A stretch of DNA of 7,258 bases from Clostridiales bacterium (lineage in GTDB: Bacteria > Bacillota_A > Clostridia > Oscillospirales > Oscillospiraceae): positions 1 through 7,258 of the forward strand of contig JALFGI010000100.1 of NCBI GenBank assembly GCA_022777455.1, read 5' to 3'. This document shows, piece by piece, positions 1 through 7,258 of the stretch. The notes under the pieces were generated by a model. It had not been told where the DNA came from. It made no database searches and was given only the letters and a program-made list of their open reading frames with translations. The translations under genes and the position numbers were made by a program. Each line of letters starts with the position of its first letter. The first letter of the stretch is position 1.

Positions 1-723
1 ATGCCCGATCCCCAGCCCGAGGCTCCCAAGGTTGCCCTGTCCTCCGCCTCCCGCTCCAAGCCCAAGGCGCCCAAAAAGCCCGAGGCTCCCAAGCCCGAGG
101 CTCCCAAAGCAGCACCCGTGAAGGAAGAGACCAAGCCCGCCGCCCCCAAGGCCGAGGAAGCTCCCAAGCCCGAGAAGAAGGAGCGCCGGGAAAATCGTGA
201 AAAGAAGCCTCAGGCTCCCAGAGAACCCAAGGAGCCGAAAGAGCCCAAGGTGTACGCCCCTGCCCAGCCCGGCAGCGTGGAGGAGAAGATTGAGCAGTTC
301 ATCGCCGGTCTGCTTGCGCACATGGGCTCCAAGGCCGTGCCCCACTGCTGGAAGGAAGAGGGCAATACATACCAGGTGGAGCTGGTGGGTGAAGACCTGG
401 GCTACCTGATCGGCCGCCGGGGTGATACCCTGGACGCCATTCAGCACCTGGCAAACTACTCCATCAACCGGGGTGTGGAAGGCCACATCCGCATCAATGT
501 GGACGCGGAGAGCTACCGGGAAAAGCGGGAGGACAGCCTGCGCCGGTACGCCGTGAAGAAGGCCCAGCAGGTGCTGAAAATGCGCCGCCGCACCACCCTG
601 GAGCCCATGAACGCCTACGAGCGTCATGTGATCCATGCCGCCCTCCAGGATATGGACAACATCACCACCCACTCCACCGGCGTGGAGCCCAACCGCTGCG
701 TGGTCATTGAATACGTGCGATGA
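1..723 (+). CDS. jag: Jag/KhpB (SpoIIIJ-associated) RNA-binding protein, 5'-partial
   Basis: This is the C-terminal 240 codons of a Jag/KhpB protein, a cytoplasmic RNA-binding protein (partner of KhpA in several Firmicutes) usually encoded next to the membrane insertase yidC. Residues 1-95 are a low-complexity Pro/Lys/Ala/Glu linker containing repeated PEAPK units; at DNA level a 15-bp unit occurs at 16-30, 79-93 and 94-108. Residues about 97-170 form a KH domain with its GxxG loop GRRG at 138-141. Residues about 175-240 form an R3H domain with the R-x3-H pair at R208 and H212. The family's N-terminal Jag_N domain is not present, so the gene most likely begins upstream of the window and the ATG at base 1 is probably internal. 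A strong terminator follows the stop by 6 nt, so jag ends its transcription unit here. The family call is very secure; only the true start is unknown. Confidence 0.95.
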   Translation: MPDPQPEAPKVALSSASRSKPKAPKKPEAPKPEAPKAAPVKEETKPAAPKAEEAPKPEKKERRENREKKPQAPREPKEPKEPKVYAPAQPGSVEEKIEQFIAGLLAHMGSKAVPHCWKEEGNTYQVELVGEDLGYLIGRRGDTLDAIQHLANYSINRGVEGHIRINVDAESYREKREDSLRRYAVKKAQQVLKMRRRTTLEPMNAYERHVIHAALQDMDNITTHSTGVEPNRCVVIEYVR

Positions 724-1110: not shown

Positions 1111-1761
1111 GTGAAAATCAACGAGGTCGAGGCCCTGGCGGGAATCGCGAAAAAGAACATCCGCTTCTACGAGGAGCAGGGGCTGATCAGTCCCAGGCGG
1201 AACCCGGAAAACGGCTACCGGGATTACGCCGACGAGGACGTGCTGGTGCTCCGCCGGATCCGGCTGCTGCGGAAGTTGGATGTGCCCATTGACGAAATTC
1301 GGCTCATGCTCTCCGGCTCCCACACAGTGGGCGACGGCATGCGGCGGCATCTGATTTCCCTGGAGCGTCAGCAGCGGAATCTGCAGCAGGCCATGGAGCT
1401 GTGCCAGGAGCTTGCCTACCAGGACATCCCCATCTCCCAGCTGGACACGGAAAGCTTGCTCACCCGGATGGAAACCTTGGAGCAGGCCGGCACCTCCTTC
1501 CATGATGTCGCCGCCCAGGACATCAAAAAGCGCTACATCGCCCCGGTGGCGGTGACGGCGGTGGTGGTGACCTTCATGACGGCGCTGAGCGGGTTGCTGC
1601 TGTGGGCGCTCACCATCTCTCCGGAGGATGCGCCGCCCATCTGGTTTGTGCTGGTAGTCATTGGATTTTTTGCCGCCGTCGGAGTGGGCTGTGTGACTGC
1701 CCTGGCCCAGCGGATTCGGGAAATTCAGAAAGGAGAAATTGACGATGCGAAAAAATATTAA
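1111..1761 (+). CDS. Membrane-tethered MerR-family transcriptional regulator
   Basis: A 216-residue protein with a MerR winged-helix DNA-binding domain at residues 1-70 (start MKINEVEAL, motif KKNIRFYEEQGL, wing NPENGYRDY), a predicted coiled-coil dimerisation region at about 75-125, and two membrane helices at about 143-170 and 177-199 joined by a short SPEDAPP turn. It ends in a cytoplasmic tail ending DDAKKY. Classic MerR sensors have a ligand or metal domain after the coiled coil; here a membrane hairpin replaces it, and no Cys cluster for metal is seen. GTG at 1111 is chosen because AAAGG lies 12 nt upstream and the protein then begins like other MerR proteins; GTG at 1102 is too close to that site. 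The promoter has the MerR architecture, so it probably regulates itself. It overlaps the next gene by 17 nt. The DNA-binding call is secure; the signal sensed is unknown. Confidence 0.9.
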   Translation: MKINEVEALAGIAKKNIRFYEEQGLISPRRNPENGYRDYADEDVLVLRRIRLLRKLDVPIDEIRLMLSGSHTVGDGMRRHLISLERQQRNLQQAMELCQELAYQDIPISQLDTESLLTRMETLEQAGTSFHDVAAQDIKKRYIAPVAVTAVVVTFMTALSGLLLWALTISPEDAPPIWFVLVVIGFFAAVGVGCVTALAQRIREIQKGEIDDAKKY

Positions 1762-1987
1762 GCGGGGCGCCATCCTCAGCGCTTTGGTGGTGGTGGCGTT
1801 TTTCCTGGTGTATCTGGTGCTGCTGGCCACCGCCGTGCTGGAGGTACCGGAGGATACCATTGGCCTGATGGCTGTTTTGTTCGCCGGGGCCATTTTCCTG
1901 GCCATCATCGCAGGCGTACTGCTGGCTCTGGGACAGCGGCTGAAGGAAATTGACGGAGGCGAGGAAGAAGATGCCAGAAAATACTGA
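1745..1987 (+). CDS. Small two-helix membrane protein homologous to the MerR C-terminal hairpin
   Basis: An 80-residue protein with a basic N-terminus (MRKNIKR), membrane helices at about 9-32 and 41-63, a short turn containing VPED, and the charged tail RLKEIDGGEEEDARKY. It aligns along its length with the last 80 or so residues of the preceding MerR protein: basic start, helix, PED turn, helix, ALxQRxxEI, then tail ending DAxKY. It is therefore a free-standing copy of that membrane module without a DNA-binding domain. ATG at 1745 has AAAGGAG at 1729-1735, 9 nt upstream; a TTG two codons earlier is less likely. The gene overlaps both neighbours by 17 nt, which points to coupled translation. 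The function is not known; partnering with or competing against the MerR hairpin is an inference. Confidence 0.85.
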   Translation: MRKNIKRGAILSALVVVAFFLVYLVLLATAVLEVPEDTIGLMAVLFAGAIFLAIIAGVLLALGQRLKEIDGGEEEDARKY

Positions 1988-2231
1988 TACCACGCATCAG
2001 AAAAAGCAGGACGCTTTGAAAAGCGCCTGGCTGTATACCCTGATCTGTGGAGGAAGCGGCGCCATGTTGCTGTATCTTCGGATCAAATACAGCCTTGGCG
2101 GCTTCTGGGGCACCCTGGTGCTCCTATCATCCCTGCTGGATCTGGGACTCATCGTCCCTGTCTGGATATCATTCAAAGAGAGACTGAAAGAAATTGAAGG
2201 AGGAGAAGAAGATGCTGCTGCTGAATATTGA
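1971..2231 (+). CDS. Second small two-helix membrane protein with the shared tail
   Basis: An 86-residue protein with a polar, charged N-terminus (residues 1-17), membrane helices at about 18-36 and 44-66, and the tail RLKEIEGGEEDAAAEY, nearly identical to that of the previous protein. The helices are more diverged than those of the first small protein and the PED turn is absent, but size, topology and tail show the same design. ATG at 1971 is preceded by GGAGG at 1955-1959 and GAGG at 1961-1964. It overlaps the upstream gene by 17 nt and the downstream gene by 20 nt. With both termini predicted on the cytoplasmic side it could interact with the tethered MerR or the downstream protease. I recognise no named family; the membrane-protein call is firm and the function is unknown. 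Confidence 0.82.
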   Translation: MPENTDTTHQKKQDALKSAWLYTLICGGSGAMLLYLRIKYSLGGFWGTLVLLSSLLDLGLIVPVWISFKERLKEIEGGEEDAAAEY

Positions 2232-2523
2232 TCACGTCCCCGGGCGGGACATGGAGGCCATCGGACTGGTAAAGGGAACGGTGGTGCAGTCCAAGAATTT
2301 CGGCAAGGACTTTATGGCCGGAATGAAGACCCTGGTGGGCGGTGAGATCACCAGCTACACTGACATGCTGGTGGAGGCCCGCCAGATCGCCACCAAGCGA
2401 ATGGTGGACGAAGCCACCGCCATGGGCGCCGATGCCATTGTGAACATCCGGTTCGGTTCCTCGGCCGTGATGCAGGGCGCCGCGGAAGTCATTGCCTACG
2501 GCACCGCCGTGAAGCTGAAATAA
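2212..2523 (+). CDS. UPF0145/YbjQ-family protein (putative heavy-metal-binding domain)
   Basis: A 103-residue soluble protein matching the UPF0145/YbjQ family in length and pattern: an N-terminal strand, then GLVKGTVVQSKNFGKDFMAG, a VGGEITSY segment, a helix with EARQIATKRMVDEA, the family signature MGADAIVNIRF, and a final GTAVKLK strand. Databases often label the family 'heavy-metal-binding domain', but members form small oligomeric rings and no biochemical role is firmly established as far as I know; no Cys or His metal site is evident here. ATG at 2212 is chosen over TTG at 2194 because AGGAGG at 2198-2203 sits 8 nt before it. It overlaps the preceding membrane-protein gene by 20 nt, and the protease-like gene follows after 22 nt. 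Family assignment is strong, function weak. Confidence 0.9.
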   Translation: MLLLNIDHVPGRDMEAIGLVKGTVVQSKNFGKDFMAGMKTLVGGEITSYTDMLVEARQIATKRMVDEATAMGADAIVNIRFGSSAVMQGAAEVIAYGTAVKLK

Positions 2524-2545
2524 CCAAAAGGAGCTGGCATCTGTC

Positions 2546-3343
2546 ATGGAAATGCTGTACATCCCCAACCTGACCATCGCCGTTCTGGTGTTCGACGTCC
2601 TTCTGAGCCTTGCCCTGCCCCTAGGGCTGATGCTGGTGTTGCGGAAAAAATTCCACAGCTCCATCATTCCCTTCTGGGTAGGCTGCGTCAGCTTCTTTCT
2701 GGCGGTTTCCGTGCTGGAAAACCTGGCCCACTCCCTGGTGCTGGGCAGCCCGGCAGGCGTTTCCATCCAGGGAAATCTCTGGCTCTACGCCCTTTACGGC
2801 GGACTGATGGCGGGCATCTTTGAAGAAACCGGCCGTCTCGCTGCCATGAAGCTGCTGAAGAAGCGGCACAACCGCCCCGAGACCGCCCTGATGTACGGCG
2901 CGGGCCACGGCGGAATCGAGGTTCTGCTGGTGATGGGCTTTTCCATGCTGCAGAATCTGGTGCTGGCGGTAACGGTGAACGCAGGCCAGGTGCAAACCCT
3001 CCTCGCCCCTCTGGCTGCGGATGAAGCAGCCGCCCTGGAAAGCGGGATTGCCGCCTTGGCCCAGTACTCCCCCGCCATGTTTCTGTTGAGCCCCCTGGAG
3101 CGAATTCTCGCTGTGACGCTGCACATGACGCTGTCTGTCCTGGTGTGGCAGGCGGCGATGAAGCCCGGGAAGCTCTGGCTGTATTTCGCTGCCATCGGTG
3201 CCCACGCCTTTGCGGATGCCTCCGCCGTGGCGCTCCAGCTGCTGGGCACCCCCCTGCTGGCCATTGAAGGGTGGATGGCCCTCATCGACGTGGCAATGGT
3301 CTTCTGGGCGCGGTACCTCTACCGCAAAATGGAGACAGCGTAA
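2546..3343 (+). CDS. YhfC-family putative intramembrane metalloprotease
   Basis: A 265-residue polytopic membrane protein with about seven predicted helices. It carries the conserved polar motifs expected of the YhfC family (distantly related to CPBP/PrsW-type intramembrane proteases): E93-E94-T-G-R97 at the end of a helix, GHGGIE at 120-125, E185-R186 with H193 in the next hydrophobic segment, and H220 with D224 (AHAFAD). These buried Glu/His residues are candidate catalytic or metal-binding groups. AAAAGGAG at 2526-2533 precedes the ATG by 12 nt, slightly longer than ideal; no better start is seen. It is the last gene of the operon, ending 7 nt before the terminator. The placement with a membrane-anchored MerR regulator suggests that the tethered regulator or the small membrane proteins could be substrates, but nothing in the sequence proves cleavage. 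Family call good; activity inferred. Confidence 0.87.
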   Translation: MEMLYIPNLTIAVLVFDVLLSLALPLGLMLVLRKKFHSSIIPFWVGCVSFFLAVSVLENLAHSLVLGSPAGVSIQGNLWLYALYGGLMAGIFEETGRLAAMKLLKKRHNRPETALMYGAGHGGIEVLLVMGFSMLQNLVLAVTVNAGQVQTLLAPLAADEAAALESGIAALAQYSPAMFLLSPLERILAVTLHMTLSVLVWQAAMKPGKLWLYFAAIGAHAFADASAVALQLLGTPLLAIEGWMALIDVAMVFWARYLYRKMETA

Positions 3344-3350
3344 TCCTTCC

Positions 3351-3381
3351 AAAAGCCGGCCTCCCCCGGGGGGCCGGTTTT
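3351..3381 (+). terminator. Rho-independent terminator of the MerR-YhfC operon
   Basis: CCGGCC (3356-3361) pairs with GGCCGG (3372-3377). The stem can be extended inward by one G-U and two G-C pairs to a CCCG loop, and outward by AAAA (3351-3354) with TTTT (3378-3381). A further T-rich tract runs to about 3395. It begins 7 nt after the stop codon of the YhfC-family gene. Confidence 0.88.
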
Positions 3382-3413: not shown

Positions 3414-3443
3414 TTGACATTCCCCTTCCGGGACGGATAAAAT
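3414..3443 (+). promoter_or_regulatory. Orphan sigma-A-like promoter resembling the MerR operon promoter
   Basis: TTGACA at 3414-3419 and TAAAAT at 3438-3443 are separated by 18 bp. The 13-mer CTTGACATTCCCC at 3413-3425 is identical to 1054-1066 in the MerR operon promoter. A short dyad, TCCC/GGGA (3421-3424 with 3430-3433), is centred 13 bp after the start of the -35, the same offset as in the first promoter. No gene follows before the insertion sequence begins at 3499, and the transposase is on the other strand. The hexamers are good; shared regulation is an inference. Confidence 0.55.
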
Positions 3444-3498: not shown

Positions 3499-3546
3499 TG
3501 TCAAGAGAAACATAGGTAACACATGGGGAAGAGACATGGGTTACAG
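3499..3546 (+). repeat. Left terminal inverted repeat of the IS481-family element
   Basis: The end starts TGTCAAGAG and contains two copies of a 12-bp motif, ACATAGGTAACA at 3510-3521 and the variant ACATGGGTTACA at 3534-3545, spaced 24 bp apart. The inner copy overlaps the transposase stop codon. Paired motifs at this spacing are likely transposase binding sites. Confidence 0.82.
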
Positions 3547-4677
3547 TCTGCGGATGTGGCGATTGATGAGTTTACCCTCAACAGCATCTACCGAAGCTAT
3601 GATATAGTTGCGGTAGATAATGGAGAATGTGTCATTTTCATCAAAGCGGATCTCTACTTGAGTGTCAGCCATAGCCTCGCTAAGGAAGAGACGAATTGGT
3701 CCAAAACGCAGATACCCCCAATTGTTCACCTTTATCAGCTTGGCACCAGAGTCATAGACATAGGGCTTTGGAATGTAGTACTCTCTGGTGCTGGGCTTGT
3801 AGACAGAGGAAGGTGTTTTCATTTTCAGCGCCTCGTGAGGACGAAGCTCATTGTACACCCAGCGCCAGTTCTCTAGTCTGGCTTTGGCTTCGGCCAGGTT
3901 TGCGGGAGTGACCCCCAAGGCTTCCTTTTTCAGCGAACGATGAAAGCGCTCAATCTTGCCTTGCGTCTGAGGATGAATGGGTTTTCCGTGGATTGGGCAA
4001 ATGTCCAAGTCCATCAGGAAACGTTCAAAGGTGGATAGTCCTCTGTGCGCTCCGGCAAACTGAGAACCATTATCCGACAGTACAGAATTTGGAAGTCCGT
4101 ACTCCTTAAAAGCAGCTATAAAGCTCTCTTTTACACCGGTAGCGGAATCTTTTGGCTCAATTCTGATGCTGAACCGAGAATGGTCATCCAGGATTGTAAG
4201 GGGGTAACAGCGAACGCCGTTTCCCAGAAGGAAGTCCCCTTTGAAATCCGTTTGCCACATCTCATTGCAGTGGTGCTTTTCAAACCGCTGGAAGGCAGTA
4301 TGCTTGGAAGCTTCCGCCGGGTCGATCAGGCCATTACGCTTGATGATGTTGCAGCAGGTTTTGTCGCTGGGCAGCCCCTCAACGCCAGCAGATTCTAAAA
4401 CAGCATGTATCTTTTTACCGCCCCATGCAGGGTGATCAAGACGCATCTGGATGATTTTCTGCTCAATGTCCTCTGCTGTTTTAGAAGGCTGCTGGTGCGG
4501 TCTTCGGCTTTGGTCACAAAGCTGAAGACCCTCTGCGGCTCGATTGATCCACTTGTAGCCAGTCTTTCGACTGACTCCATACTTCCGGCACAGGGCGCTG
4601 ACGGTCTCCCGAGCTTCCATTACCTCTGCTACAAATTGTTCCCTTGTCTCCATAACAGTCTTTGTCTCCCATGACAT
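3541..4677 (-). CDS. IS481-family DDE transposase
   Basis: A 378-residue transposase that cuts and joins the ends of its own insertion sequence. An N-terminal helix-turn-helix (about residues 20-50, with CRKYGVSRKTGYKWI) precedes a second DNA-binding region (to about 120) and an rve/integrase core. The catalytic acidic residues are D144 in WQTDFKG, D202 in LSDNGSQF and E243 in GKIERFHRSLKKE. A C-terminal beta-rich region of about 90 residues is typical of IS481 members. ATG at 4677 is preferred because AAAGGAAG lies 8 nt upstream; GTG at 4686 overlaps that site. The gene is intact with no frameshift and all three catalytic residues, so it should be active. Its stop lies inside the left terminal repeat. 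It has no functional link to the flanking genes. Confidence 0.95.
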   Translation of the reverse strand: MSWETKTVMETREQFVAEVMEARETVSALCRKYGVSRKTGYKWINRAAEGLQLCDQSRRPHQQPSKTAEDIEQKIIQMRLDHPAWGGKKIHAVLESAGVEGLPSDKTCCNIIKRNGLIDPAEASKHTAFQRFEKHHCNEMWQTDFKGDFLLGNGVRCYPLTILDDHSRFSIRIEPKDSATGVKESFIAAFKEYGLPNSVLSDNGSQFAGAHRGLSTFERFLMDLDICPIHGKPIHPQTQGKIERFHRSLKKEALGVTPANLAEAKARLENWRWVYNELRPHEALKMKTPSSVYKPSTREYYIPKPYVYDSGAKLIKVNNWGYLRFGPIRLFLSEAMADTQVEIRFDENDTFSIIYRNYIIASVDAVEGKLINRHIRRL

Positions 4678-4711
4678 CTGACCCACTTCCTTTGCTCGTC
4701 GGATGCCCTTT

Positions 4712-4775: not shown

Positions 4776-4979
4776 TATTAGCCTCCCGCGCGGTACAAAC
4801 CCACGATCAGAAATAAGGTTGGGCGAATTCGTACTGTGTTGTACATGGTATCATTCAACCGGGTACGCAGATTCGTTACCTGACGGGCCTCTGTAGCCGC
4901 CCCTACGGTGGCGTAGACGTAATTTTGTACCCGCCAAATTGCTATTTACTGAATTTCCATGAACAAAGGAGCGGTATCA

Positions 4980-7258
4980 ATGAAACGACTGTGTACATTT
5001 GCCCTGGTGCTGGCGGTTCTGCTGGCGCTGCTTCCGGCGGCGGGGGCAGAAAGAGAATTCCGGTTCACCCGGGAGAATTTTCCCAAGCTGGACGGCTCCA
5101 CCTCCATGGTGCCTCTGGGCAACGGCATCGCCAGCGTGCTGCTGGGGGAAAGCCGGGAGGATACCGCCTCCCTCATCGCCTTCAACCGCACCACCCAATC
5201 CTTCCGGAACCTGTGCAGCGGGGACAGCGACATCGTCATTGCCGCCGAGCCAAAAAATGATGTATTCCAGGAAATGGCCGAAAATGCCTTCCCCTATGAG
5301 CTGGAGCAGATTGCCACGGAGGCCCTGGTGTTTGTGGTGAACGAAAACAATCCCATCAACTCCCTCACCACCCAGCAGGTCCGGGACATCTATTCCGGCC
5401 AGATCACCAACTGGAGCCAGGTGGGCGGGGAGGATATGCCCATTGCCGCCTTCCAGCGGAACGCCACCGCCGGCAGCCAGGTGATGATGGAAAAGCTGGT
5501 AATGGACGGCATTCCCATGATGGAGGCCCCCGCCGCCATGGTGCCGGGGGAAATGGGAGAGCTCATCGAATCCGTCCGCAGCTACGACAATTCCGCCAAC
5601 GCCATCGGCTACACCGTGTTCTACTATGCCGCGGACATGCAGATGGCCCAGGGCCTGAAAATCCTGCAAATCGACGGCGTGACCCCCTGCGCCGAGACCC
5701 TGCGCTCTGAGGAATATCCCTTCCTCAACGGCTACTATGCCTGCATCTCCGCTCTGGCTGAGGCCGATTCCCCCCAGCGCATTCTCTACGACTGGCTGAT
5801 TTCCCAGGAAGGTCAGGACCTTCTGGCTCTGGAGGGCTATGTTCCCGTGTACGGCCCCGGGGAGGCCCCCACCACCGGGGACAAGGTATTCACCGACTAT
5901 TCCTCCTACGCTCCCAACGGCGGCACCCCCGCCAAATTCACTTCCTTTGACTGCCCCAAGGACCGTCTGGAGCCCCGGGAGGACTATGGCGATATTTACC
6001 CCTATGACGGCTCCCAGCTCTACGGCACCTGGGGGAACGGTTCCGGAGATTACCAGGTGGGAAGCCTGAAGGGCTTTTATAACCACCGGGGCCAACTGAT
6101 CACCGACCCCATCTACACCAGCATCGACTATTTCGCCCTGGACGAGCAGGGCGGGGACTACCTGTGGGTGGTATCCACCGGGGATGAACACTACGGCTAT
6201 GTGACCCGGGACGGCAGCTTTGCCACGGAGCTCTGCTACGACAGCCTGTATCGGGTGGGAGACTACCTGTTCGCCTCCACGGATTATGGTACCCAGACCT
6301 TCCAGCTGCTGGATATAAATCTGAACCAGGTTGCAACCCAGGAGGACTACACCTTCGACGGCAAACGCTATGCCCCCCAGCTGTTTCAAAACGGCCTGAC
6401 CCTGTGCTATCACAACAATGAGGATTGGAGCGGAGAATACATCCTCCTGGATGAAAACAAAAATATTCTCCTGCAAACCCAGAATTATGTCACCATTGAT
6501 GAAAACGGCATCATCTGTCTCTACGACGAGGCGTGGAACTGCACCCTGTTTTACTCGGATATGACCCCGGTGGAGCTGCCGGAGGTGGGCGAAAACCGGA
6601 ACGTACTGCAGCTGAGCGGCCGGTTCTACCAGGTGTCCGGGGACGACGGAAACTACATCATTGATGCGGGCGGCTCCCTTTTCCAGTGGAACTACGACAG
6701 CGCCGTCTATTCCTGCGAGGACTGCTTTACCGTGGTGAAAAATGGCCGGGCAACCCTTTACGATGCCAACGGCCGGGTGAAATTTGCCGGTCTGAACCCG
6801 GAATGGTACTATCTGGGAGATGGTATTTTCTCCGAAACCATAGAAGAAACAATTTTCCTGCACAAGCCGTCCGAGAATAAAACCCTCTCCTTCCCCGACG
6901 GCAGCTTCGCCTATGCTCTGGGAGACTGCTATATTGTTTCCATCTGCACCGACGACCGCTGGAGCACAGCGCTGGTGGACAGCGAGTTGAAACTTCTCAT
7001 GCAGGCCACTGGAGAGTTGTCCATCCTGGATGATTTGATTGCCGGAAAGAGCTACCTGCTGGCCTATGATTCCTACGGCTTTGCCGGGGAACAGCGGCTC
7101 TACACTTCCGACGGCCAGACCCAGCTCTTCCGGGCCAATGGGCAGCTGGGAATTCAGAACGGCTACATCACCGTCTCCAGCGACTGGGCCTTCACCTGCT
7201 ATGACCCTGAGGGGAATGTGATCTTCTGCTACCCCTACTACGGCATGGCCTCCGGAGA
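4980..7258 (+). CDS. Secreted PstS-like solute-binding protein fused to WG-like repeats, 3'-partial
   Basis: At least 759 residues; the frame is open to the window end. Residues 1-23 are a signal peptide (MKRLCTF, hydrophobic core, AAGA cleavage site) without a lipobox Cys. Residues about 30-290 form a PBP-like/PstS-type solute-binding domain: LDGSTSMVPL near the start, SGDSDIVIAAEP, then LVFVVNENNPINSLT, IYSGQITNWSQVGGED and QRNATAGSQ, all standard for the family. From about residue 340 the protein changes to beta-rich units such as YGYVTRDGSF...YDSLYRVGDYLF and LYDANGRVKF, resembling WG repeats of a propeller-like or solenoid fold. AAAGGAG at 4965-4971 lies 8 nt before the ATG. No transporter genes are in view, so it may act as an extracellular binding or sensing protein rather than as a phosphate-importer component; the ligand is unknown. 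I found no clear promoter in 4781-4979. Confidence 0.88.
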   Translation, partial: MKRLCTFALVLAVLLALLPAAGAEREFRFTRENFPKLDGSTSMVPLGNGIASVLLGESREDTASLIAFNRTTQSFRNLCSGDSDIVIAAEPKNDVFQEMAENAFPYELEQIATEALVFVVNENNPINSLTTQQVRDIYSGQITNWSQVGGEDMPIAAFQRNATAGSQVMMEKLVMDGIPMMEAPAAMVPGEMGELIESVRSYDNSANAIGYTVFYYAADMQMAQGLKILQIDGVTPCAETLRSEEYPFLNGYYACISALAEADSPQRILYDWLISQEGQDLLALEGYVPVYGPGEAPTTGDKVFTDYSSYAPNGGTPAKFTSFDCPKDRLEPREDYGDIYPYDGSQLYGTWGNGSGDYQVGSLKGFYNHRGQLITDPIYTSIDYFALDEQGGDYLWVVSTGDEHYGYVTRDGSFATELCYDSLYRVGDYLFASTDYGTQTFQLLDINLNQVATQEDYTFDGKRYAPQLFQNGLTLCYHNNEDWSGEYILLDENKNILLQTQNYVTIDENGIICLYDEAWNCTLFYSDMTPVELPEVGENRNVLQLSGRFYQVSGDDGNYIIDAGGSLFQWNYDSAVYSCEDCFTVVKNGRATLYDANGRVKFAGLNPEWYYLGDGIFSETIEETIFLHKPSENKTLSFPDGSFAYALGDCYIVSICTDDRWSTALVDSELKLLMQATGELSILDDLIAGKSYLLAYDSYGFAGEQRLYTSDGQTQLFRANGQLGIQNGYITVSSDWAFTCYDPEGNVIFCYPYYGMASG

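Follow-up and report, generated by a model that had tools for sequence, protein, structure and literature searches.

The locus described here raises the question of how a MerR-type transcription regulator that carries its own membrane anchor is controlled, and what a YhfC-family membrane protein encoded in the same operon contributes to that control. The operon lies in a stretch of 7,258 nucleotides (nt) from a gut bacterium of the Clostridiales (contig JALFGI010000100.1, hereafter the window) and consists, in this order, of a promoter, the gene for the hairpin-anchored MerR, genes for two small membrane proteins, a YbjQ-family gene, a YhfC-family gene and a terminator-like hairpin, the five genes being close or overlapping (Table 1). 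A preliminary description of the window proposed that YhfC is a protease which releases MerR from the membrane. The operon that it described is true and unusual, and YhfC is a real partner of the hairpin MerR, albeit an optional one. The reading that we favor, with a probability of about 0.6, is that the MerR protein is a membrane-tethered one-component regulator of efflux and envelope defense, with YbjQ as its constant partner and with YhfC as an optional output rather than the releasing enzyme.

The MerR protein has 216 residues and a GTG start codon. Pfam assigned its N-terminus to the winged helix-turn-helix (wHTH) profiles PF13411 (E-value 1.3e-19 over residues 1-68) and PF00376 (2.4e-11), and no effector or ligand domain scored above its cut-off in the same scan. 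Hydropathy analysis placed two helices at about residues 146-164 and 177-195. The AlphaFold2 model of the monomer (mean predicted local distance difference test score (pLDDT) 88.7, predicted template modeling score (pTM) 0.61) shows the wHTH, a helix at residues 73-102, a candidate for the long helix through which MerR-family proteins dimerize, a linker helix at 113-125, hairpin helices at 133-169 and 177-206, and a tail of low confidence. The protein has a two-helix membrane anchor in place of a sensor domain, as first proposed, and joins a DNA-binding domain and a transmembrane segment in the manner of transmembrane transcription regulators. A first genome scan using the C-terminal alignment gave no matches; searching the reference genomes with the window MerR yielded 177 confirmed relatives. 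The best 80, each matching residues 1-216, were analyzed. Two or three hydrophobic segments were observed by hydropathy in 80 of 81 proteins. Searches of an open-access library, in which some of the papers listed were read and most subscription journals are absent, turned up neither a membrane-anchored MerR nor a MerR cut in the membrane. Among near-identical metagenome MerR proteins (P0001-P0119), a shared N-terminal part is joined to either of two alternative hairpin sequences (residues about 150-190), which looks as though recombination had exchanged the anchors. Many other MerR proteins of the order also contain membrane segments (L136-L157), some with a long part of ~300 residues behind these segments and some with several helices.

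The window promoter has the 19-20-nt spacer and the dyad of MerR-family promoters. From 77 MerR promoters we built an operator matrix (consensus TTGACcTTCCcCCtggTGGAAGGTgTA), and the 31-nt element precedes MerR in 78 of the 81 loci (the 77 in the matrix and L035), with 0 matches at threshold in 1.49 Mb of shuffled sequence; where a promoter was matched (76 loci), 19 nt was the best spacing in 67. The pattern points to an autoregulated promoter, in line with the preliminary description. The five genes are likewise arranged as one transcription unit, so that the supposed co-transcription of MerR and YhfC holds: between the promoter and the terminator-like hairpin, the + strand contains just two weak 5-pair terminator matches, and in the terminator scan overall such sites were no commoner than in shuffled sequences.

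If YhfC released MerR by regulated intramembrane proteolysis, a signal would cause it to cut the MerR hairpin, and the soluble MerR would then activate the operon. This circuit is suggested by the shared operon of the window, and regular co-occurrence of the two genes was to be its support. YhfC was found in 13 of the 80 locus flanks (up to 10 kb), each time as the gene just upstream of MerR and in the same orientation, at spacings from a 3-nt overlap to 268 nt. Whole-genome searches detected it in 17 of 50 genomes, a set including these 13, and in 0 of the remaining 30, which gives 17 of 80; a fourteenth YhfC adjoins the second hairpin MerR of its genome (L092). The expected link is thus specific, 14 of the 17 YhfC genes being adjacent to a hairpin MerR, but the regular co-occurrence failed, with 63 of the 80 genomes lacking YhfC, although many are drafts, so that single absences may be gaps. 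Hairpin-anchored MerR genes hence usually occur without YhfC, an outcome that the preliminary description itself had named as speaking against its circuit. Among 300 genomes of one family, where the hairpin MerR was called at E-values up to 1e-60, YhfC occurs in 71, the hairpin MerR in 53 and both in 14, and their presence is independent (YhfC in 14 of 53 genomes with the hairpin MerR vs 57 of 247 without; Fisher p 0.60). In seven of the 14 genomes with both, the genes are immediate neighbors, and in the other seven they lie apart. An order-level sample of 295 genomes contained YhfC in 50, a full-length hairpin MerR in eight and both in one, where they are not adjacent. On the MerR tree, YhfC adjacency requires 10 gains or losses, at least five of which are forced by well-supported branches. 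In an alignment of 66 of the 81 MerR rows (15 rows of a YhfC-free clade were left out), no position separated YhfC-linked from YhfC-free proteins beyond shuffles (top position 0.287 bits vs 0.297 bits at the 95% point). A protease and its tethered regulator, as a pair of this kind, are accordingly not found together as a rule, and YhfC as an obligate protease was rejected as the general case on the strength of the survey and of the independence in the family.

The YhfC protein of the window belongs to PF10086 (165.4 bits vs a cut-off of 24.2), a family (DUF2324) called PrsW-like in passages of PMC3482391. Residues E93, E94, R97 and H193, to which the preliminary description had pointed, are present and are invariant in 16 aligned MerR-linked YhfC proteins; across 48 aligned proteins, E93, R97, H121, E125, E185, R186 and H220 are each at least 94% conserved. 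These Glu and His residues are consistent with a protease. The AlphaFold2 model (pLDDT 96.7) has a predicted fold that resembles APH-1 and falls within the CAAX-protease/APH-1 superfamily, but its nearest solved folds are not catalytic subunits themselves, which argues against the proteolytic circuit; the role of APH-1 as a non-catalytic subunit is also described in PMC7387801. Rce1 was absent among the structural matches listed for the model, which says nothing about the fold.

Further evidence on the role of YhfC comes from its own promoter region. Each of the 13 YhfC genes in the flanks begins with the operator (23.5 to 44.3 bits), which also stands before YhfC in L092 and, off the MerR contig, in L082/L286 and L199/L285, at 23 to 51 nt from the predicted YhfC start where measured. 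Altogether, 15 of the 17 YhfC genes from the 80 genomes have the operator in front, including one (L082) whose MerR lies on a different contig. In L012, L025 and L040, yhfC and merR may share a transcript, since the only operator copy there precedes the yhfC-merR pair. In the family sample, eight of the 14 YhfC genes from genomes with both carry the operator, namely the seven adjacent ones and one other (G593). A single origin of all 19 operator-linked YhfC genes was borderline in the approximately unbiased (AU) test (p 0.053), and a single origin of 16 genes together with that of the window was not rejected (p 0.62); we therefore claim no separate recruitment for the window. Since YhfC lies behind the MerR operator, as efflux genes do, and is optional, we regard it as an output of the regulator. 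The claim that YhfC releases MerR is unsupported, since most hairpin-MerR genomes lack the proposed protease and its gene stands behind the operator of the regulator; in spite of the shared operon, the conserved residues and the close linkage of 14 of the 17 genes, we consider the proteolytic circuit improbable.

The partner that does not vary is YbjQ, which the preliminary description had left unnamed. The window protein (PF01906, 123.7 bits vs a cut-off of 23) has three solved relatives with 5 chains each. All 80 of the 80 loci have a YbjQ gene downstream of the hairpin MerR, separated from it by 0 to 4 genes for small hairpin proteins, and because the loci were picked by MerR alone, this constancy is not built into the sample. 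YbjQ is also downstream at the MerR loci that were read in the family sample (26) and in the order sample (eight), some of these genomes being common with the 80. YbjQ is thus the constant partner of the hairpin MerR. In seven loci it carries an N-terminal extension of about 89 residues, which reads as a hairpin with a tail-like end in the five that were inspected; in L036, Pfam identified YbjQ behind the extension.

The C-terminus of MerR and of the small proteins is a common tail, RxxEIxxGExDDAxxY. Both free modules of the window start with ATG; hydropathy identified two helices in module 1 and one above threshold in module 2, which had no match to MerR at the cut-off used. This tail could be a by-product of gene overlap, if its codons served to hold the ribosome site and the start of the gene that follows. 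The window genes do overlap in this way, by 17 and 20 nt, each following start lying within the tail codons, and the tail of the gene preceding YbjQ deviates as overlap predicts. However, where the following gene lies clear of the tail (gaps of 9 to 1073 nt), 40 of 40 C-termini retain the motif; where it overlaps, 154 of 161 do, and the seven exceptions have QI in place of EI (gene starts were chosen by our own rule). We rejected the by-product on this ground and consider it very improbable. On the simplest reading, which we infer from the sequences, the MerR anchor, the free hairpins and YbjQ probably form one membrane complex. Two further stretches (L209/L283 and L220/L284) lack a MerR but encode in a row YhfC, a small two-helix protein that ends in the tail EVKSGEEDDLDKY or one close to it, and YbjQ.

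The predicted regulon was read from the genomes of relatives, the source bacterium being represented by the window alone, and comprises all 51 operator matches outside MerR, YhfC and YbjQ, with the first gene assigned by our own start rule. The first genes encode HlyD/MacA-like proteins (14), ABC (ATP-binding cassette) ATPases (7), serine hydrolases with a beta-lactamase fold (6), TolC-like proteins (5), TetR regulators (3), alpha/beta hydrolases (2, by eye) and other or unclear products (14); a MerR gene is first behind 0 of the 51. Pfam confirmed one representative from each of five first-gene classes. Inspection of the downstream genes by eye showed a MacB-type ATPase after HlyD in 8 of 8 cases, a long protein (528-533 residues) after the ABC ATPase in 4 of 4, and HlyD after two of the TetR genes. 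In L158 the operator precedes a small PLDc_N protein and then an ABC ATPase. The theme of this predicted regulon is export and envelope upkeep. With up to two mismatches, the operator pattern gave 116 matches in 50 of 50 hairpin-MerR genomes (summed from the table, one palindrome counted twice) and 1 with the reversed control; 50 family genomes without the hairpin MerR gave four, all with two mismatches. The operator was absent from all 30 order-sample YhfC loci (L098-L127). Three near-identical operator-like sites in one genome (G038; L186, L187 and L189) have no clear gene behind them and are perhaps a repeat.

In the mechanism that we favor, the hairpin MerR would bind the 19-nt-spaced operator from the membrane and keep or untwist the promoter in MerR fashion. 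Its anchor, the same-tailed free hairpins and YbjQ would form a complex in the membrane whose signal is either a membrane-active compound or the state of the membrane itself. MerR would control its own operon and a small regulon of MacA/MacB-type and other ABC exporters, TolC-like proteins and the serine hydrolase, joined in the smaller share of genomes by YhfC, whose function as an output would most likely be membrane protection or peptide handling. Occupancy of the operators by MerR, the complex, its signal and the function of YhfC are all inferred here from genes and their order.

Several observations weigh against this reading. Two of the 17 YhfC genes (L096 and L097, encoding distant YhfC proteins) have no operator. 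Among the 14 family genomes in which both genes occur, at least four (G431, G454, G462 and G604) likewise have a YhfC gene without it at threshold; of the seven family genomes with the genes apart, five were checked, G474 and G548 being left out. MerR proteins with other C-termini, from genomes without the hairpin MerR, carry similar sites (L142, L146, L149 and L151), and the operator motif is therefore not unique to the hairpin-MerR subfamily. In a wider survey of 93 YhfC loci (from the order and family samples and a few others, the 13 flank YhfC genes left out), 18 adjoin membrane-anchored regulators vs at least three beside soluble ones, which exceeds what a plain output needs. Eleven of the 93 YhfC genes directly follow, with a 4-nt overlap, a distinct MerR in which a hairpin is combined with a zinc-ribbon-like domain at the C-terminus. 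Two (L113 and L117) come directly after an Xre regulator that likewise has a two-helix hairpin and a ribbon of similar kind, two follow an Xre regulator with several transmembrane helices, and three adjoin a hairpin MerR of the window type. The soluble neighbors are TetR (L205), ArsR (L288) and Arc (L256), with an AraC-like end in L092 by eye; their count is a lower bound, as 35 neighbor proteins were scanned with Pfam and the rest judged by homology or by eye.

The eleven zinc-ribbon MerR proteins (L105, L106, L107, L211, L213, L215, L217, L218, L249, L250 and L266) are of a distant type with a wHTH and a two-helix hairpin, four of them showing one hydrophobic segment at the threshold used. 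Relatives occur in 22 of the 295 order genomes, in 18 of which no YhfC is adjacent. In 20 such loci that were read, the next genes are a PLDc_N protein and an ABC ATPase in three and an Rce1-like peptidase (PF02517, E-value 4.5e-17) in one, and most others have no clear next gene. The PLDc_N and ABC pair is also that behind the window-type operator in L158; outputs look interchangeable. The presence of YhfC, and once of the Rce1-like peptidase, beside other anchored regulators also lends something to the proteolytic circuit.

It is possible that YhfC acts directly on anchored regulators, which would be the more striking result. We tentatively consider, at low probability, that YhfC-family and occasionally Rce1-like proteins are general partners of hairpin-anchored regulators and tune or cut the hairpin. 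Their coupling, often by overlap, to regulators of unrelated types, namely the hairpin MerR with YbjQ, the zinc-ribbon hairpin MerR and the zinc-ribbon hairpin Xre, would fit this, though we doubt that it marks a general partnership. It is similarly unlikely that YhfC serves as an APH-1-type scaffold or intramembrane protease in such a signaling class, which we found described nowhere. A narrower form is feedback, in which MerR-induced YhfC would bind or cut the hairpin anchor and so damp or tune MerR, as SpdC does with WalK in Staphylococcus. Feedback of this kind is not general, given the 63 genomes without YhfC; no MerR position tracks YhfC, and the zinc-ribbon MerR mostly stands without an adjacent YhfC, so that we hold this too to be unlikely.

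The favored reading, a tethered regulator with YhfC as an output, can be set beside known systems. With regulators of the MerR, CueR and BmrR type, the window MerR shares the wHTH profile and a promoter whose 19-nt spacer contains a dyad, but where they have a ligand-binding C-terminal domain it has a membrane hairpin with a short tail. As with PrsW and RsiW and other cases of regulated intramembrane proteolysis, a tethered regulator in the window has as its neighbor a CAAX/PrsW/APH-1 superfamily membrane protein; unlike there, the protease candidate is missing from most instances and is itself behind the operator of the regulator. Transmembrane transcription regulators such as CadC, ToxR, TcpP and others, some with a co-encoded membrane partner, likewise unite a DNA-binding domain and a membrane anchor in one protein, whereas the window has a MerR wHTH, a proposed promoter-untwisting mode, paralogous free anchors and a YbjQ partner; MerR is unnamed in the searched passages of this source (PMC10269533). 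According to PMC5854430, SpdC of Staphylococcus aureus is a CAAX-protease-like membrane protein linked by experiment to the two-component system WalKR. In both cases such a protein is the target of a nearby regulator, by prediction for YhfC, but in Staphylococcus the regulator is a two-component system with experimental feedback, and feedback of YhfC on MerR is hypothetical.

In the SDP defense of Bacillus, SdpI holds the repressor SdpR, which is soluble. The window system, on our reading, resembles that defense in having control linked to the membrane and MacAB-like exporters that act against a membrane-active peptide, but the window MerR has its own anchor. SdpI-like or DUF1648 proteins adjoin YhfC in seven of the 93 loci (five by Pfam, two by eye). 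The comparable Bacillus exporter YknWXYZ protects against the SDP toxin, as PMC4887032 reports.

Table 1. Features of the window, with positions counted from its first nucleotide.
Feature	Position	Strand	Support
jag/khpB, first gene in the window	1-723		
MerR-type promoter/operator: TTGACA, 19-nt spacer, TATAGT; dyad TTCCCCC / GTGGAA	1055-1085	+	46.0 bits, 77-locus matrix
Hairpin-anchored MerR: wHTH 1-68, helices to 125, two-helix anchor, C-terminal tail RIREIQKGEIDDAKKY	1111-1761	+	PF13411
Free two-helix membrane module 1, paralogue of MerR anchor, same tail	1745-1987	+	Match to MerR, 1e-7
Free membrane module 2, same tail	1971-2231	+	Match to module 1, 5e-4
YbjQ family protein	2212-2523	+	PF01906, E-value 5.7e-36
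YhfC family membrane protein, conserved Glu/His set	2546-3343	+	PF10086, E-value 1.8e-48
Terminator-like hairpin, end of operon	3352-3381	+	13 pairs, then T-rich stretch

Beyond the operon, a promoter-like site at 3414-3443 was considered as a second operator and is not claimed, with 3.3 bits, or 20.8 bits when one inserted position was chosen for fit. Directly after it lies an IS481-type transposase gene (3541-4686, - strand), and the insertion may separate the site from its former gene. A PstS-like phosphate-binding protein with weak WG repeats (4959-7258) runs off the end of the window.

Membrane-bound one-component regulators are widespread and little studied, and for the YbjQ family, which has solved structures, we know of no role. 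The operon offers a MerR version of such a regulator, with a definable operator, a small predicted regulon centered on export, a constant YbjQ and free copies of the anchor. The action of MerR from the membrane and the role of YbjQ thereby become directly testable in gut Clostridia, and PF10086, a family named a protease, gains a physiological setting.

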